Virus record (IMG/VR): IMGVR_UViG_3300031603_000036
Location: 1 to 20,149 of that record
DNA: 20,149 bases
DNA from: a virus
Reading direction: 5' to 3' (one strand)
Below the pieces are notes generated by a model. The model worked only from the letters and a program-made list of their open reading frames with translations, did no database searches and was not told where the DNA came from. A program made the position numbers and the translations under genes. Position 1 is the stretch's first letter. Each line of letters begins with the position of its first letter. Positions 1-6,099 of this stretch are shown piece by piece.

Positions 1-453
1 CCTAATGATACAAAATCAAATCCAATATATACAATTGGGTCAAGTTATAATCCAAGTGATGCGGCAATCGCTGGTATGTATGGGGTAGGCTTCGCCGAGG
101 GCACTAGTGCAACATTTCTCAATACAACAGACTTGGGAGCAGACCCAGCCGGTTGGGGATTATATGTAGCCGCAGATGGAAATGCTCGTGTGTTTTTAGA
201 TGGTACAAACGGACATATTTATAATAAAGGAAATATTTATACTGGTGGTACAATCCAAGGTGCGAACGTGACATCTGGAGTAGATCCCGGGCATACTCAC
301 ACTATTGCGAGTTCACTAAGCGATAGTACTACGTCAGAGCAAACAGCCTCCGTAGGCGAGATACGTATTCAGTCGACTACTTCCACGGAGAGATTCACTA
401 TGTCATACAATGAAACTGATGACACTCTAGACTTCGCGTGGGTCTCCAGCTAA
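1..453 (+). CDS. Tail fibre protein, C-terminal part (5'-truncated by window edge)
   Basis: The reading frame is already open at base 1, so the visible 150 residues are the C-terminal end of a longer protein whose start lies outside the window. The first Met codon at 76 is internal and should not be taken as the start. The sequence is rich in Gly, Thr, Ser and Asn and has fibre-like phrases such as ADGNARVFLDGTNGHIYNKG, followed by a GHTHT motif about 50 residues before the end. His-x-His motifs of this kind occur in trimeric phage fibre shafts and tips, where they can bind metal. The gene ends in a TAATG overlap with the next fibre gene, so the two are probably translationally coupled. A trimeric tail fibre or baseplate fibre is the best call; the exact position in the virion is not determinable. 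Confidence 0.7.
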   Translation, partial: PNDTKSNPIYTIGSSYNPSDAAIAGMYGVGFAEGTSATFLNTTDLGADPAGWGLYVAADGNARVFLDGTNGHIYNKGNIYTGGTIQGANVTSGVDPGHTHTIASSLSDSTTSEQTASVGEIRIQSTTSTERFTMSYNETDDTLDFAWVSS

Positions 454-2858
454 TGGCTGTAGTAGGAAAACTAGGCAAAACTGGCATACTCCAGGTACAC
501 GAACTAGACGAGAAGCTACCCGTACTACGCAAGGGGTTAATGCAGAACTATCCGCTAGATGGTTCTCTAGTTCATTACGTAGATTGCGAGCAATTCCCGG
601 CTAACACCATTCAAGTGCTTTCATATAACAGTCATTCCACAACTTGGCGTCTTAAGAATGAACTAGACAGTGGAAATATCATTAATGGTGCTATGACCGT
701 CAACAATGGGGCTACGTCGGCACAAATGGCAGCTGCGGATATAGTGGTATGTGATTGGTACGTATGGGGTGTATCATCAGGCAACATGTCCTCCTTAAAA
801 ACAGCAGCCGACAATGGAGCAGCAGTAATAGCCACCGGTAACGATACTTCTACTAATGTGTTCGTAGCTACCGTCGGTACCCTGGGTACTGAAAATACGT
901 ACAATGGTACGTTCTACGACAACGCAGAGGTTCGTGCCATAATGGGAGATTACGCTGGAACCCAAATTGCAAACACATCAACCGACCCCAACTACGTAAT
1001 CAAAACATTTAATAGTCTCACTACCGGTAGAATTGTTGCCCTATACGAACATGATTACGGCACAGCAAATATCATGGGATACATGTATATTCCTCACGAG
1101 GGAGGAGGATCCCTTTACTTCGATGAGTTCGGAGGAAATCAGAATATCTCCGCTAATAGACCTATCTACCGGCATATTATAAACTGGATGATGGGAAGAA
1201 AGACGCACGCTGACTATATCACACAAACTGGTATTCAATATAATCAAATTTATAGAGGAACATTCATACAGAAATCATTCTCTAACGTGGTTACTAATTA
1301 CGACATGATTACAGGGTGGACTACCAGCTATTGTACAAGCATACAGTACGATGATTACCCTAAACCCATGGGTGCAGATCCATCAGGTAAGGTAGTTTCA
1401 TTTATAGACGCAAATAGTGATGGTAGCGGATATTGGTTTTCCTACGGCAACTACGCACCGCAGGCTGACAACACCAGATATGAGATATCTATGTGGATAC
1501 GTACTGAACCTGGCGGAAGTAACGTAGCAGTAAGGGCATACACCGCGGACAACGCCGAAACTGATAGAGTGTTCACTCAGATCATTACAGTTACAGCTAA
1601 CGGCGACTGGCAACTCATACATTTCACTACCCTTTTAACTGACACCGGATGGGACTCGGATTCCTTAAGTTTTCAATTTACTACATTACCAGCCGGACAA
1701 CGCGTATGGCTATATGGTCCAAGTATGGCATCCGGGAAATGGACCACAACTCCATTTCACCCCGGGTCGTTGGCATCTCACGCCGACCTGAGACTTCCTC
1801 TTAGACTTGGAACTGGCAACTTCACCATTACTGGTTTTATAACTCCGCAAAGTGAAGCAGACGGCACATACACTTCTACTGCGGCACAAGCTGCTTTATT
1901 CGGATTAAAAGATCTCACTTCTGGGGATAACGTATACTACAGGTACTACGTATCCGGAGGAAGTAGTTATTCCTATATGGATCCCGATGTGTCTAGTACC
2001 TGGAATACCACCGCAACCTCCGGACACGCCCATCAAGGTTACGACCTCGACCTCTATGCGCATTATATGTTCATCATAGAACGAAATAGCTCCACTAACA
2101 TCACGGTAAGATTCAGAACTCATACTGGCACGTTAACCGGCCCGCACACTATGTCCTATGTATCGGCGGCTGCAGTAGCCGATCAGCTTAAATTCGGGTA
2201 TGGCAGTACGGCTATGTGGGAATCACGAATAAGTAGAGTATCTATATACAACCACTCAGATTTTACCGATGCAGAATTACTTAGAGAAGGTGATGATTAT
2301 CGATTAAGCTTACTCCTGAATAAGACTGGAGTACTAAGTACCGGCGGCCGTAATAACGTGTCAGAAGCAGAGGAGAATCTATGGCCCGGGGCTACCTACG
2401 GCGGGTCTAATAGCTACGCCATATCTAGTGGAACTTCTACCGCAGTAGAAGGTGAGTATCATCAAATGGTACTTAGTAGTTACAGTGGATCAAGATATAA
2501 AGGATGGGATATAGCCACGGCTAACGGAGCTACCTACGCGTTCTCTGGTGAATTTTGGATGAGTGGTACCCCTCTATACACACTAGCGTGTCTACGATTC
2601 GAGGGAGAAGTCTCAGGATCTGATTCTATATTGTGGGAACAACTAGAGGAAGAAGTCTGGACACCCCTCACCGTCTACTGCGTAGCGGATACGTTGGTAA
2701 GGTTCCTGACATACCCTAGTAGTAGCAGTGGCCCTACCACTGGAACATTCAGATGGAGAAACATGTCAGTACGTAGGGTTTATCAAAACGAGTTACTAAA
2801 ACTTAATAACTACGACTTTGTAGGCCTAGAAATAGGCGAATTAGTGGAGAATCTATAA
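453..2858 (+). CDS. Multi-domain tail fibre / receptor-binding protein with lectin-like modules
   Basis: An 801-residue protein if translation starts at the ATG that overlaps the previous stop (TAATG at 451-455); an in-frame GTG at 438 would add five residues but has no ribosome binding site. Reading by eye: residues about 50-250 look like an alpha/beta (Rossmann or glutamine-amidotransferase-like) domain, with an AADIVVCDWYVWG strand, an AADNGAAVIATGND strand and an ending GGSLYFDEFGGN...YRHIINWMMG. Residues about 276-430 resemble a CBM4/9-type jelly roll (GYWFSYG, RYEISMWIRTEPGG, VWLYGPSM). Residues about 444-615 resemble a LamG/concanavalin-like domain (LPLRLGTGNFTITGFI, ISRVSIYNHSDFTDAEL). 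Residues about 640-775 look like another jelly roll. Known carbohydrate-binding folds of these kinds occur in phage receptor-binding proteins, so a sugar-binding adhesion role is inferred. No glycosidase catalytic motif was recognised. Confidence 0.6.
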   Translation: MAVVGKLGKTGILQVHELDEKLPVLRKGLMQNYPLDGSLVHYVDCEQFPANTIQVLSYNSHSTTWRLKNELDSGNIINGAMTVNNGATSAQMAAADIVVCDWYVWGVSSGNMSSLKTAADNGAAVIATGNDTSTNVFVATVGTLGTENTYNGTFYDNAEVRAIMGDYAGTQIANTSTDPNYVIKTFNSLTTGRIVALYEHDYGTANIMGYMYIPHEGGGSLYFDEFGGNQNISANRPIYRHIINWMMGRKTHADYITQTGIQYNQIYRGTFIQKSFSNVVTNYDMITGWTTSYCTSIQYDDYPKPMGADPSGKVVSFIDANSDGSGYWFSYGNYAPQADNTRYEISMWIRTEPGGSNVAVRAYTADNAETDRVFTQIITVTANGDWQLIHFTTLLTDTGWDSDSLSFQFTTLPAGQRVWLYGPSMASGKWTTTPFHPGSLASHADLRLPLRLGTGNFTITGFITPQSEADGTYTSTAAQAALFGLKDLTSGDNVYYRYYVSGGSSYSYMDPDVSSTWNTTATSGHAHQGYDLDLYAHYMFIIERNSSTNITVRFRTHTGTLTGPHTMSYVSAAAVADQLKFGYGSTAMWESRISRVSIYNHSDFTDAELLREGDDYRLSLLLNKTGVLSTGGRNNVSEAEENLWPGATYGGSNSYAISSGTSTAVEGEYHQMVLSSYSGSRYKGWDIATANGATYAFSGEFWMSGTPLYTLACLRFEGEVSGSDSILWEQLEEEVWTPLTVYCVADTLVRFLTYPSSSSGPTTGTFRWRNMSVRRVYQNELLKLNNYDFVGLEIGELVENL

Positions 2859-3541
2859 TGGCACGATTATCAGCAGGAACAACTATAGCAGGGTACATAG
2901 CGTACCACACAGGTAATACGGAAAGTATGGCACCCTCATGGGGAGGCGCACACTACGCAGATAATAAATATGCCTACTTCGGCACCGGTGACGACATGAA
3001 GATGTACTTTAGTGGAAGTTACGGATACGTAGACGTGGTTGGTTCCTCGTCCCGTTTCTACTTAAGAGTGAATGGCACCGAAACTGCATTCCTGGCCTAC
3101 GCTAATGGTGGTTCATATATGTACGCCAACGATGTAGCCAGAATAAATGCCAGCACTAGTGGTGCAGCCATTACAGGCGCCCTCACTGCCACAGGAAACA
3201 TAACAGCATACTCATCAGATGCCAGACTTAAAACAAATGTACGAGAGCTGGAAGGTGGACTAGCAACAGTTCTTAGCTTAAGGGGAGTTACGTTCGATTG
3301 GGATAAAGAGAAGTGTGATTTCGCAGGCTTCAACCCTGGATTCGACGGTGATGTTGGGTTTATAGCCCAAGAGTTAGAAGGAAAGATAATAAACGGCACA
3401 GCACAAGCTCCATTCACTATAAGTTCAGAAGAGGTACCCTATGAGGGTGAGGAGTATTTAACCATACATAGCGACAGAATAATACCTTATCTAGTCGCAG
3501 CTATAAAAGAACTAAATCAAAAGATAGAGGAACTTTCATAA
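2858..3541 (+). CDS. Tail fibre/spike protein with C-terminal S74 intramolecular chaperone (endosialidase-type)
   Basis: A 227-residue protein starting on a TAATG overlap; GGAGA at 2846-2850 gives a suitable ribosome binding site. Residues 1-115 are Gly/Ser/Tyr-rich fibre-like sequence (AYHTGN, DMKMYFSGSYGYVDV). Residues 120-227 are a peptidase S74 / intramolecular chaperone domain: the hallmark SDARLKTNV gives Ser120 and Lys125, the spacing of the catalytic Ser/Lys pair in endosialidase, followed by the typical VTFDW, GFIAQELE and the final helix PYLVAAIKELNQKIEEL. In this family the chaperone drives trimerisation and then cuts itself off just before the Ser, so cleavage between residues 119 and 120 is predicted, leaving a short 119-residue trimeric tip protein. 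The neighbours on both sides are fibre or tail-tip genes. Confidence 0.85.
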   Translation: MARLSAGTTIAGYIAYHTGNTESMAPSWGGAHYADNKYAYFGTGDDMKMYFSGSYGYVDVVGSSSRFYLRVNGTETAFLAYANGGSYMYANDVARINASTSGAAITGALTATGNITAYSSDARLKTNVRELEGGLATVLSLRGVTFDWDKEKCDFAGFNPGFDGDVGFIAQELEGKIINGTAQAPFTISSEEVPYEGEEYLTIHSDRIIPYLVAAIKELNQKIEELS

Positions 3542-4674
3542 TGGGTGTACTACCATCAAAAGGAGAGCTGGCGGCGAGCGATATAAATATTGCAATGGGC
3601 ATAACAGGAACTACACTTTTCTACATGGGCCAACGCAATCAAGAATGGTACAACATGGCTCAACTTCCGGGTGGTGTGTTCTACGGAACCGAAGCCACAC
3701 CGCACTCTTTCGACGATTTCCATGGCGGCGAGTGGGCACTGTGTTTCATAGCTGGAACTAAAATCGCCATGGGCGACGGTACTTTGAAAGACATAGAGGA
3801 TGTAGCGGTGGGGGATGAAGTAATAGCGTACAATCCAAACAAAGTACTGTTCGCCCCTAAAGCAGTACTAGCTGCAAAGATAACAGAGAATGACGGCTCT
3901 CCTTTACAGGAAACAATCATCATAGATTTTGAAGACGGCACGCAATTACACTGTACCGATAGTAATCCATTCTGGGTACCTGGGAAATACTGGTGTAGTT
4001 ACAATACACCTAAGTGTCAATATGATCACAGTATAGCCTCCAATCCATTAGATATAGGTGACACGTGCGTCGTATATCGAGACGGCGTTAGCGGCTTGAC
4101 GGCTATAACTAATATAACCGTAGTAAAAGAACCCGTCACTACGTACTCCCTGACCATAGCCATGTGGGCTACCTTCATAGCTAACGGTATTGTAACTCAT
4201 AATAAGTGCATCGACGGTTCCGCCCTGGCCACCATGGCGGACGGCACTACTAAGCCGCTTCGTGATCTTCAGATAGGTGATGTAATACTATCCTACAACG
4301 GAGAAAGCTTCGTAGAGGATAGAGTTAGATGGGTAAGGATGATACCACACACTGGTATATACGAATATACCTTTCATAAAGATAAGATCAAAGCTACCGC
4401 TGGGCATCCATTCCTACTAAGTAGTGGGGAGTACGGAGCCTACGACCCGGAAACAGCCTTAGTTGATTATGAAATTGAATGTGCGCCTCTAGACCCAATG
4501 GTCGACGCGATGACATACTTCGACGGAGATACACTTCCAATAGTCTGCTCTGGTATTAAACTAGTCGATGAGGAAGTGGAACACGAAACGTACATCATTA
4601 AACTAGATAAGAATAATTGTTACATAGCAGATAGCATGTTAGTGTACACCGGCATAGCAGCAAACACAACATAA
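3541..4674 (+). CDS. Tail-tip-type protein carrying two tandem Hint (intein/hedgehog) domains
   Basis: A 377-residue protein starting on a TAATG overlap behind GAGGA. Residues 1-63 resemble the short N-terminal fibre module of phage proteins that begin LPSSG..S..DI (here LPSKGELAASDINIAMG, later ATPHSFDDFHGG). The rest is two Hint folds separated by one residue. Hint 1 (68-221) begins CFIAGTKIAMGDGT...VGDEVIAYN and ends IANGIVTHN, a canonical intein C-terminus, but its block B reads TDSNPF, with Asn142 where the catalytic His belongs. Hint 2 (223-about 370) begins CIDGSALATMADGT...IGDVILSYN and has the intact block B TAGHPF (Thr286, His289), but its end is YIADSMLVYTG with no His-Asn. No homing endonuclease is inserted. 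Autocleavage or covalent attachment is inferred from the Hint family; which reactions occur is unknown. Confidence 0.75.
   Translation: MGVLPSKGELAASDINIAMGITGTTLFYMGQRNQEWYNMAQLPGGVFYGTEATPHSFDDFHGGEWALCFIAGTKIAMGDGTLKDIEDVAVGDEVIAYNPNKVLFAPKAVLAAKITENDGSPLQETIIIDFEDGTQLHCTDSNPFWVPGKYWCSYNTPKCQYDHSIASNPLDIGDTCVVYRDGVSGLTAITNITVVKEPVTTYSLTIAMWATFIANGIVTHNKCIDGSALATMADGTTKPLRDLQIGDVILSYNGESFVEDRVRWVRMIPHTGIYEYTFHKDKIKATAGHPFLLSSGEYGAYDPETALVDYEIECAPLDPMVDAMTYFDGDTLPIVCSGIKLVDEEVEHETYIIKLDKNNCYIADSMLVYTGIAANTT
3742..4203 (+). other. Hint domain 1 (intein-like; intact C-terminal His-Asn, lost block B His)
   Basis: Encodes residues Cys68 to Asn221 of the protein above. The first Cys and terminal His220-Asn221 are in the positions used for intein N- and C-terminal cleavage. 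The residue after Asn221 is Lys222, not Cys, Ser or Thr, so classical splicing is not expected; bacterial intein-like (BIL) domains of type A also tolerate other residues there and mostly cleave. Confidence 0.7.
4207..4650 (+). other. Hint domain 2 (intact Cys and T-x-x-H, no terminal His-Asn)
   Basis: Encodes about residues 223-370. Cys223, Thr286 and His289 are the residues a hedgehog-type Hint domain needs for the N-S acyl shift. The end lacks His-Asn, as in hedgehog autoprocessing domains. The end of the domain is estimated from where intein block G would lie. Confidence 0.65.
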
Positions 4675-4815: not shown

Positions 4816-5118
4816 ATGGTAGCCTGGTTTGAATTAACAATGTTCATACTCAATGTGGTAGCTGCAGCAGTTAGTTATCTACTCGGACACACCCTCTCGA
4901 AACACCCCGGAGGTACACGTAAAATAGGACACGGCTTTAAAGTCGTTAGTATCATTTACTTTCTAATCACAGCCCTAGCATATCTCTTAGCAGGACCATT
5001 TGCCCAGATAATAGCCGTAGCTTCCCTAGCAGGAGGATTTATAATCCCCATGTTCTGGGTATACACCTGGCTAACTGGACTAGATGTATTTGTCAAGAGT
5101 CTGGGCAAGAAACATTAA
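4816..5118 (+). CDS. Small three-TM membrane protein, candidate holin
   Basis: A 100-residue, very hydrophobic protein with three predicted membrane segments at about residues 5-24, 43-60 and 62-86, a short basic loop between the first two (KHPGGTRKIGHGFK) and a basic tail ending KSLGKKH. Size, topology and charged C-terminus fit a class I type holin, which forms holes in the inner membrane to let the endolysin out. Family membership was not recognised from sequence, so the call rests on topology and on the neighbours: a coiled-coil/TM protein and an amidase follow directly. AGGA lies nine bases before the ATG. The stop codon overlaps the ribosome binding site of the next gene. It could instead be another small phage membrane protein. 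Confidence 0.5.
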   Translation: MVAWFELTMFILNVVAAAVSYLLGHTLSKHPGGTRKIGHGFKVVSIIYFLITALAYLLAGPFAQIIAVASLAGGFIIPMFWVYTWLTGLDVFVKSLGKKH

Positions 5119-5131
5119 GGAATAGTTATAC

Positions 5132-5587
5132 ATGCCAGACAAGACTCCAGAAGAGAGACTGGCCGGGCACGACGCACGCCTCGACAACGTAGAATCAGGC
5201 GTTAGCGAAATTCGAGCAGATAGCAAAGACCTTTATAAACTTCACAGAGATTTAATGACTTCACAGGCATCTACCCAGGCCAACCTGGATAGAGCAGCTG
5301 CCTCAATCGCAGAAAGCGCAGAGATGCAGAAGGAAGGGAAGAAAGATCTATCAACTAATGCCATTCAATTGGCAGCTCACGACGTCAAGCTCGATAACAT
5401 CACCATAGTCATCCAGAATATAAGTAAGATTGGTATGTACCTCATACTAGTGATCTTGCTTAGTTCAGTTGGCTGGTGGGTTACCAGTCTTAATACAGTA
5501 AATGCTGGAACGACAGCTCCAGTAATAGATCCAACCGGCATCGTCTCGATGCCACCTAGTCCAACAGGTATAAATCCAAAGCCATGA
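5132..5587 (+). CDS. Coiled-coil, single-TM lysis-associated protein (XhlA-like topology)
   Basis: A 151-residue protein. Residues 1-97 are charged and helical, probably a coiled coil; residues about 98-120 (KIGMYLILVILLSSVGWWV region) form one membrane segment; residues 121-151 are a Pro/Thr-rich tail. The helical part holds an internal duplication, LAGHDARLDNVESGVSEI (10-27) and LAAHDVKLDNITIVIQNI (80-97). A soluble coiled coil followed by a C-terminal membrane helix recalls the XhlA/haemolysin family that accompanies holins and amidases, though this protein is longer and I see no firm family motif. AAGGAA (5117-5122) overlaps the previous stop, which suggests coupled translation. A spanin-like or antiholin role is possible; the context supports lysis. 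Confidence 0.45.
   Translation: MPDKTPEERLAGHDARLDNVESGVSEIRADSKDLYKLHRDLMTSQASTQANLDRAAASIAESAEMQKEGKKDLSTNAIQLAAHDVKLDNITIVIQNISKIGMYLILVILLSSVGWWVTSLNTVNAGTTAPVIDPTGIVSMPPSPTGINPKP
5159..5422 (+). repeat. Internal protein repeat pair L-A-x-H-D-x-[RK]-L-D-N
   Basis: Two copies, encoded at 5159-5212 and 5369-5422, flank the middle of the coiled coil. The similarity is at protein level; the DNA has drifted. Confidence 0.6.
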
Positions 5588-5595
5588 GGAACTAA

Positions 5596-6099
5596 ATGAG
5601 ATCACGAGAACTTGAAGTAGTCGATCGAATTGTAATCCACAGATCTAAATCTCTATGGGGTAATGCCAAAGTCATCGATGAGTGGCATAGGGCAGCACCT
5701 AATTTCTGGGACGCCATTGGATATCATAAAGTAATATGCAATGCATACCCGACAGGTGAATCCTTCCGACTAAAACAACCACAGATATATGCCGACGGTA
5801 AAATCGAAGACGGCAGAGACTACAAATGGGTAGGCGCTCATGTTCGTGGTAAAACAGAAGCGGGACTATCATACAATACCGTAAGTATCGGTATCTGCTT
5901 GATAGGGAAGACGACCTTCACGTACAAACAGATCCTAGCACTACGCACACTGGTAGATACTATCAGATATGAATTAGGTCCGTTGCCTATATACGGACAC
6001 GACGAACTACAGTCCGGAAAAGTATGCCCATATCTCGATATGGACTTCATCCGTGAACTGATCCCGATAAAACCCCTCATTGGTCCTCCCAGTCCTTAG
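5596..6099 (+). CDS. N-acetylmuramoyl-L-alanine amidase, T7-lysozyme type endolysin
   Basis: A 167-residue single-domain amidase (Amidase_2/PGRP fold), close in size to the 151-residue T7 lysozyme. It would cut the bond between N-acetylmuramic acid and L-alanine in peptidoglycan. The zinc ligands by family comparison are His15 (IVIHRS), His135 (YGHDELQ) and Cys144 (GKVCPYLD); the catalytic Tyr43 (GYHKVI) and Lys142 also align with T7 Tyr46 and Lys128. Other family signatures are VGAHVRGKT and NTVSIGICLIG. There is no signal peptide or cell-wall binding domain, so export would depend on the preceding holin candidate. The TGAGGA box spans the previous stop, six bases before this ATG. The compact single-domain form is more usual in phages of Gram-negative hosts. 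Confidence 0.9.
   Translation: MRSRELEVVDRIVIHRSKSLWGNAKVIDEWHRAAPNFWDAIGYHKVICNAYPTGESFRLKQPQIYADGKIEDGRDYKWVGAHVRGKTEAGLSYNTVSIGICLIGKTTFTYKQILALRTLVDTIRYELGPLPIYGHDELQSGKVCPYLDMDFIRELIPIKPLIGPPSP

Follow-up and report, generated by a model that had tools for sequence, protein, structure and literature searches.

The 377-residue protein analysed here contains two Hint domains, Hint1 and Hint2, and the remaining reaction residues of both domains face the joint that parts them (N221/K222/C223). It is encoded in a 20,149-base viral fragment from IMG/VR (IMGVR_UViG_3300031603_000036), the whole of which is called the window in this text. The residues required for reaction are kept on either side of the joint (H220-N221 before K222, C223 and T286-x-x-H289 after it), and one residue is lost for each of the outer reactions (N142 in Hint1, Y369-T370 in Hint2). 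The initial annotation had already placed the two reactions at this joint, and the same tendency is now seen in a census of tandem Hint arrays from phages. The coordinates of the gene and its features are listed in Table 1.

The Hint-pair gene is located at the tail-fibre/lysis boundary, with a tail-fibre gene that carries an S74 chaperone on one side and the lysis genes on the other. The upstream neighbour (2858-3541) encodes a protein with an S74 endosialidase chaperone, and its stop is overlapped by the Hint-pair gene. The downstream region contains small membrane-type ORFs followed by an amidase gene (4816-6099). The name "tail-tip protein" given in the initial annotation is a putative one that follows only from these neighbours. 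Two contigs, L005 (198 kb) and L006, encode a capsid protein 71% identical to that of the window and have a different tail module without a Hint, so the Hint-pair gene is regarded as part of a swapped module. When positions 1-4674 of the window are compared with these contigs, the tail-fibre module is found to be replaced, a module swap at the tail/lysis boundary. No close relatives of the whole 377-residue protein were found in the viral contigs with peptide patterns, in phages with tblastn, or in L005 and L006, and the window gave zero megablast matches against 50,697 phage records. The DNA pattern of VTHNKCI was tried as a route to relatives and yielded chance matches only. A stretch ahead of the Hint of L132 (SDIN...FDEFYG) resembles residues 1-67 of the window protein.

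The presence of two Hint domains in one open reading frame, parted by Lys222, had been read from the sequence and is borne out by profiles, an AlphaFold model and Foldseek. Hint1 matches the Pfam families PT-HINT (2e-7), Hom_end_hint (2.5e-8) and Intein_splicing (1e-5). The Pfam and NCBIfam matches of Hint2 are all partial and comprise the Hint module (best stretch 219-255), Vint (223-291) and TIGR01445 (223-292). A profile made from phage Hints scores 130 bits at residues 68-221 and 74 bits, over nearly its full length, at residues 231-368. The AlphaFold2 model of the whole protein displays two separate beta-rich Hint folds. Foldseek searches of the PDB with the whole protein and with Hint1 alone returned Tetrahymena BIL2, the Clostridium BIL CthBIL and many inteins; Hint1 modelled alone (pLDDT 93) has a TM score of 0.81-0.82 to BIL2. 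Both Hint1 and Hint2 show the horseshoe Hint fold together with a profile match. The comparison with intein, BIL and hedgehog Hints supports the second Hint fold, and among solved structures BIL domains come nearest.

The residues named in the initial annotation (Asn142, His220-Asn221, Lys222, Cys223, Thr286-x-x-His289 and the lost His-Asn of Hint2) are all correct, as read directly. Its inventory of Hint1 was right about the loss of the block B His but incomplete, since the loss of the block F His (Ala210) had been overlooked; Hint1 is therefore weaker than had been stated. At the block F position Hint2 has Asn, and His is found there in 68 of 130 relatives. Hint2 also lacks the L-x-x-GD motif and has LDPMVDA instead.

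Table 1. Position of the Hint-pair gene, its domains and its catalytic residues in the window
Feature	Position	Strand	Remark
Whole ORF, 377 aa	3541..4674	+	Start overlaps stop of preceding tail-fibre gene (TAATG)
N-terminal module, residues 1-67 (SDIN...FDDFHGG)	3541..3741	+	No family match
Hint1, residues 68-221, A-type BIL-like	3742..4203	+	Profiles, model, Foldseek
Asn142 (AAT), in place of block B His of Hint1 (T139-D-S-N142)	3964..3966	+	
Ala210, in place of block F His of Hint1	4168..4170	+	
His220-Asn221, intact C-terminal cleavage motif of Hint1	4198..4203	+	
Lys222, single-residue spacer	4204..4206	+	Most frequent +1 residue of related phage Hints is Lys
Hint2, residues 223-370, B-type BIL-like, no terminal HN	4207..4650	+	Profiles, model
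Cys223, intact N-terminal nucleophile of Hint2	4207..4209	+	
T286-A-G-H289, intact block B of Hint2	4396..4407	+	
Tyr369-Thr370 (context L367-V-Y369-T370-G), at expected His-Asn position of Hint2	4645..4650	+	

A-type BILs keep the terminal HN and cut at their C end; B-type BILs have no C-terminal motif, and their cut lies at the N end (PMC7765530). Hint1 shares with the A-type BILs the Hint fold, the N-terminal Cys (C68), the C-terminal His-Asn (H220-N221) and a +1 residue other than C/S/T (Lys222), but it lacks the block B His, T139-D-S-N142 standing in place of T-x-x-H. Hint2 shares with the B-type BILs the Hint fold, the N-terminal intein motifs (C223 as C1, and T286-x-x-H289) and the absence of a C-terminal motif (Y369-T370). 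Similar to the window pair, bacterial BILs are found in variable proteins; the window protein differs in having both types in one chain, one Lys apart, in a phage structural protein. The inteins share the Hint fold, HN and C1, but the window protein has Lys222 rather than C/S/T at +1, and its Hints are not inserted in a conserved enzyme.

Hints were collected from IMG/VR viral contigs with a block A pattern, joint patterns and an alignment search, which gave 160 non-redundant Hint proteins. A tandem array was defined as at least two consecutive Hints with a linker of at most 12 residues in a phage structural-type protein. This definition covers 40 proteins of uncultivated phages, namely the window protein and 39 others (non-redundant), with 2-7 units; most have 2-4, L140 has five and L142 has seven. 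The commonest linker between Hints is a single Lys (20 joints), followed by KF and KG. The joint HN-K-C, as in the window, occurs in L021, L089 and L137-L144, and HN-KF-C or HN-KG-C in many others. Among the carriers of the arrays are DUF4815/VrlC baseplate-type proteins, tail proteins rich in glycine and a family whose N-terminal domain has ~300 residues. No description of tandem Lys-jointed Hint arrays in phage structural proteins was found in the open-access literature searched. The single Hints are of the known BIL-like kind, and it is their tandem Lys-jointed arrangement that appears to be new. The exact pattern HN-K-CF-x-x-G-T, the one used in 84,980 cellular species, gave two chance matches only.

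Several of the arrays have features of their own. The seven consecutive Hints of L142 (7598-10876, minus strand) lie in an 1838-residue glycine-rich phage tail protein, and five of the joints are exactly HN-K-CF. Arrays of 2-4 Hints precede the DPLAQTF motif of DUF4815/VrlC baseplate-type proteins in L021, L138, L139, L141 and L143. The N-terminal domain common to L065, L024, L075 and their relatives occupies residues 1-300 and is followed by a first Hint without C1; in the L065/L024-type arrays it has no Pfam or PHROG match, and an ATP-grasp origin, suspected from E-x-N motifs, was dropped on the same result. In L088, L089, L144, L060, L227, L229, L236 and L237, a complete Hint with HN-K or HN-KG is followed by a short second Hint form (CFLAGTPITMADGT...GSHMV...FTDYFDG), which has no C-terminal half.

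Judged from the sequences, Lys after HN is a hallmark of this phage Hint group. Lys is the +1 residue after the terminal HN in 89 of the 130 Hints with C1 and in one of the 18 without it. In the data collected blind to the joint, it is the most common residue at this position (58/96), and after clustering it is the majority +1 residue in 12 of 36 clusters. A nucleotide-level artefact was ruled out, as the Lys, His and Asn codons vary freely; the +1 Lys is therefore a protein-level feature. Its origin as a residue of the host protein was ruled out for the DUF4815 family, since its homologs without a Hint carry P, T or W ahead of DPLAQ. Because these homologs have no Lys there, the +1 Lys is considered to be part of the Hint unit.

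Catalytic losses are concentrated at the ends of the arrays. C1 is lost in 18 of 40 first Hints and in none of the 79 later ones, and HN is lost in 20 of 38 last Hints compared with 3 of 79 others; these counts are strongly non-independent phylogenetically and come from few protein families, so that the Fisher values overstate independence. With the window and all joint-selected arrays set aside, the remaining 25 arrays, subject to the same non-independence, show loss of C1 in 17/25 first and 0/51 later Hints and loss of HN in 11/23 last Hints and 3/51 others. The C1 losses all belong to essentially one family. The HN losses belong to about four lineages, one of which is a short Hint form that never has HN. 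In L100, L131, L043, L047, L106, L154 and L157 the last Hint ends in LVSD instead of LVHN and retains C1 and T-x-x-H, and the loss of HN in Hint2 parallels these. Nearest to Hint1 (39-43%) is the first catalytic Hint of the L075-type arrays, and nearest to Hint2 (~32%) are the last Hints of these arrays; the positions are assigned by similarity ranking only, with IQ-TREE and FastTree in disagreement on Hint1. The last Hints that Hint2 resembles most include ones that retain HN (L044), and the two trees disagree on placement; Hint2 may group with known B-type sequences or with A-type ones that lost HN. By its pattern of residues, the window fits a wider rule in which joint-facing residues are kept and losses fall at the outer ends. 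The losses described earlier as reciprocal are thus real in the window and fit this tendency, but their exact combination is present in no homolog: H142N is found only in the window, and last Hints often lack the terminal HN. With N142 unique among the relatives, strict reciprocity was ruled out as a conserved trait.

We propose that an A-type-like and a B-type-like BIL react at their shared joint and detach Hint2, a reading to which we give about an even chance of being correct. Reaction at Asn221-Lys222-Cys223 is expected because the A-type and B-type BIL chemistry of the two domains points there. The cyclisation of Asn221 would cut the 221/222 bond, and/or the formation of a thioester at Cys223 with subsequent hydrolysis would cut 222/223. 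One product would be residues 1-221, in which the N-terminal module stays attached to Hint1, and the other would be Hint2 in free form (~17 kDa). BILs without a +1 nucleophile mostly yield cleaved products (PMC7664689). The outer bond Leu67-Cys68 would react slowly or not at all. Cleavage at 67/68 in the window protein is less likely; it would still be conceivable because a large -1 residue, here Leu67, can stand in for the block B His (Leu in the experiment; PMC6333167). The purpose might be, as a guess, the timed release or exposure of a piece of the tail module during assembly. If the joint reacts, this would be a new way of phage tail-protein maturation. The model is weakened by the absence of the block F and block B His in Hint1 and of L-x-x-GD in Hint2, as either domain could be dead. 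Furthermore, the exact combination of the window is a single case, the searches described above gave no close relative of the protein, and only a few protein families make up the arrays of the census.

The strongest rival to joint cleavage is a dead structural pair: a decayed array whose chemistry is gone and which is retained for a structural or adhesive role in the tail protein, much as AXH appears to be a Hint devoid of catalytic residues. This is possible but doubtful. Decay is suggested by the two His residues lost in Hint1 and the HN and GD motif lost in Hint2. An apparently non-catalytic Hint homolog, AXH, exists, and the gene is dispensable, since it is absent from related phages at 71% capsid identity. 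However, neither nucleophile has been lost, H220-N221, T286-x-x-H289 and the Lys joint are still in place, and the losses fall at the outer ends, a pattern not favoured by random decay.

Isopeptide splicing, in which Hint1 would be excised and residues 1-67 joined to the epsilon-amine of Lys222, is unlikely. It is modelled on Tetrahymena BIL2, the nearest solved relative, which forms an isopeptide bond to Lys (PMC8616854). Of the solved structures, that of the Tetrahymena BUBL protein (BIL2, PDB 6TMM/6Y75) comes nearest to the phage Hints, both in the profile comparison (E 2e-27) and in fold; BUBL also resembles the phage arrays in its repeated BILs per protein and in the lysine chemistry reported for BIL2. 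In BUBL the BILs alternate with ubiquitin-like domains, whereas one to few residues separate the Hints of the phage arrays. The common +1 Lys, which belongs to the Hint unit and is nearly confined to Hints with C1, would be the acceptor. Hint1 nevertheless lacks the block B His on which the first step depends, even if the large Leu67 could compensate for it. The acceptor of BIL2 is a lysine of ubl5, not evidently the +1 residue, and the crystal construct shows no sign of a +1 Lys. A broader version, in which Lys-spaced arrays serve as a self-processing device of the virion and the N-terminal acyl group of every Hint is handed on to the epsilon-amine of the Lys that follows it, has a low probability. 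If true, it would produce isopeptide links, even epsilon-linked oligolysine in HN-K-C arrays, or would cross-link tail proteins with no need of enzymes or ATP; the window protein would then be the smallest, partly decayed form.

It is equally improbable that H142N stems from an error in sequencing or assembly, or is a private variant, and that Hint1 is a fully active BIL. His is present at this position in 130 of 130 complete relatives, and N142 rests on one base (AAT) in a single contig, yet the block F His of Hint1 is lost as well, which implies that some decay is real. The least probable reading is the hedgehog-like switch of the initial annotation, passing the N-terminal part to a host amine or sterol: Hint2 does resemble Hog domains in the Hint fold, C1, T-x-x-H and the dispensable terminal HN, but the protein ends seven residues past Hint2 without a sterol-recognition region or other acceptor domain, its closest relatives are BILs with Hog structurally far lower (1at0 at rank 24-25), and the transferred part would carry Hint1.

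With joint cleavage as the preferred reading, the arrays bear on the natural role of BILs, which so far have been known as lone, scattered domains whose purpose is uncertain and, in ciliates, as components of polyubiquitin genes. With as many as seven Hints in a row, a conserved Lys joint and losses concentrated at the ends, the arrays offer a testable case for such a role, which may be cutting or joining at the inter-domain joints of virion proteins.

By sequence, the AXH domain of ataxin-1 is a Hint homolog, and it looks like a truncated and catalytically dead Hint. Its homology with the phage Hints, also seen in HBP1, extends over ~105 residues and takes in the GWSS..P..L..GD stretch; AXH differs in having no catalytic residues and no C-terminal Hint part and in being eukaryotic. 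AXH is described as an OB fold in a review (PMC3988977), and no paper linking it to Hint was found in the literature searched. It is absent among the 50 best structural matches listed by Foldseek. If confirmed by structure, the link would provide an evolutionary origin for the AXH of ataxin-1, the SCA1 protein. A search with the phage Hint profile recovers ataxin-1 AXH (E 4e-12) and HBP1 (1e-6), a single phage Hint finds ataxin-1 at 8e-9 (phmmer), and Pfam AXH matches 47 of 57 phage Hints. An intein-like Hint is present in Salicola phage SCTP-2 gp4 (L004, 1150-3963), where it lies inside the tail-collar domain of the tail fibre (GWAL before C...HN, followed by CDGSNGTPDLTDRF).
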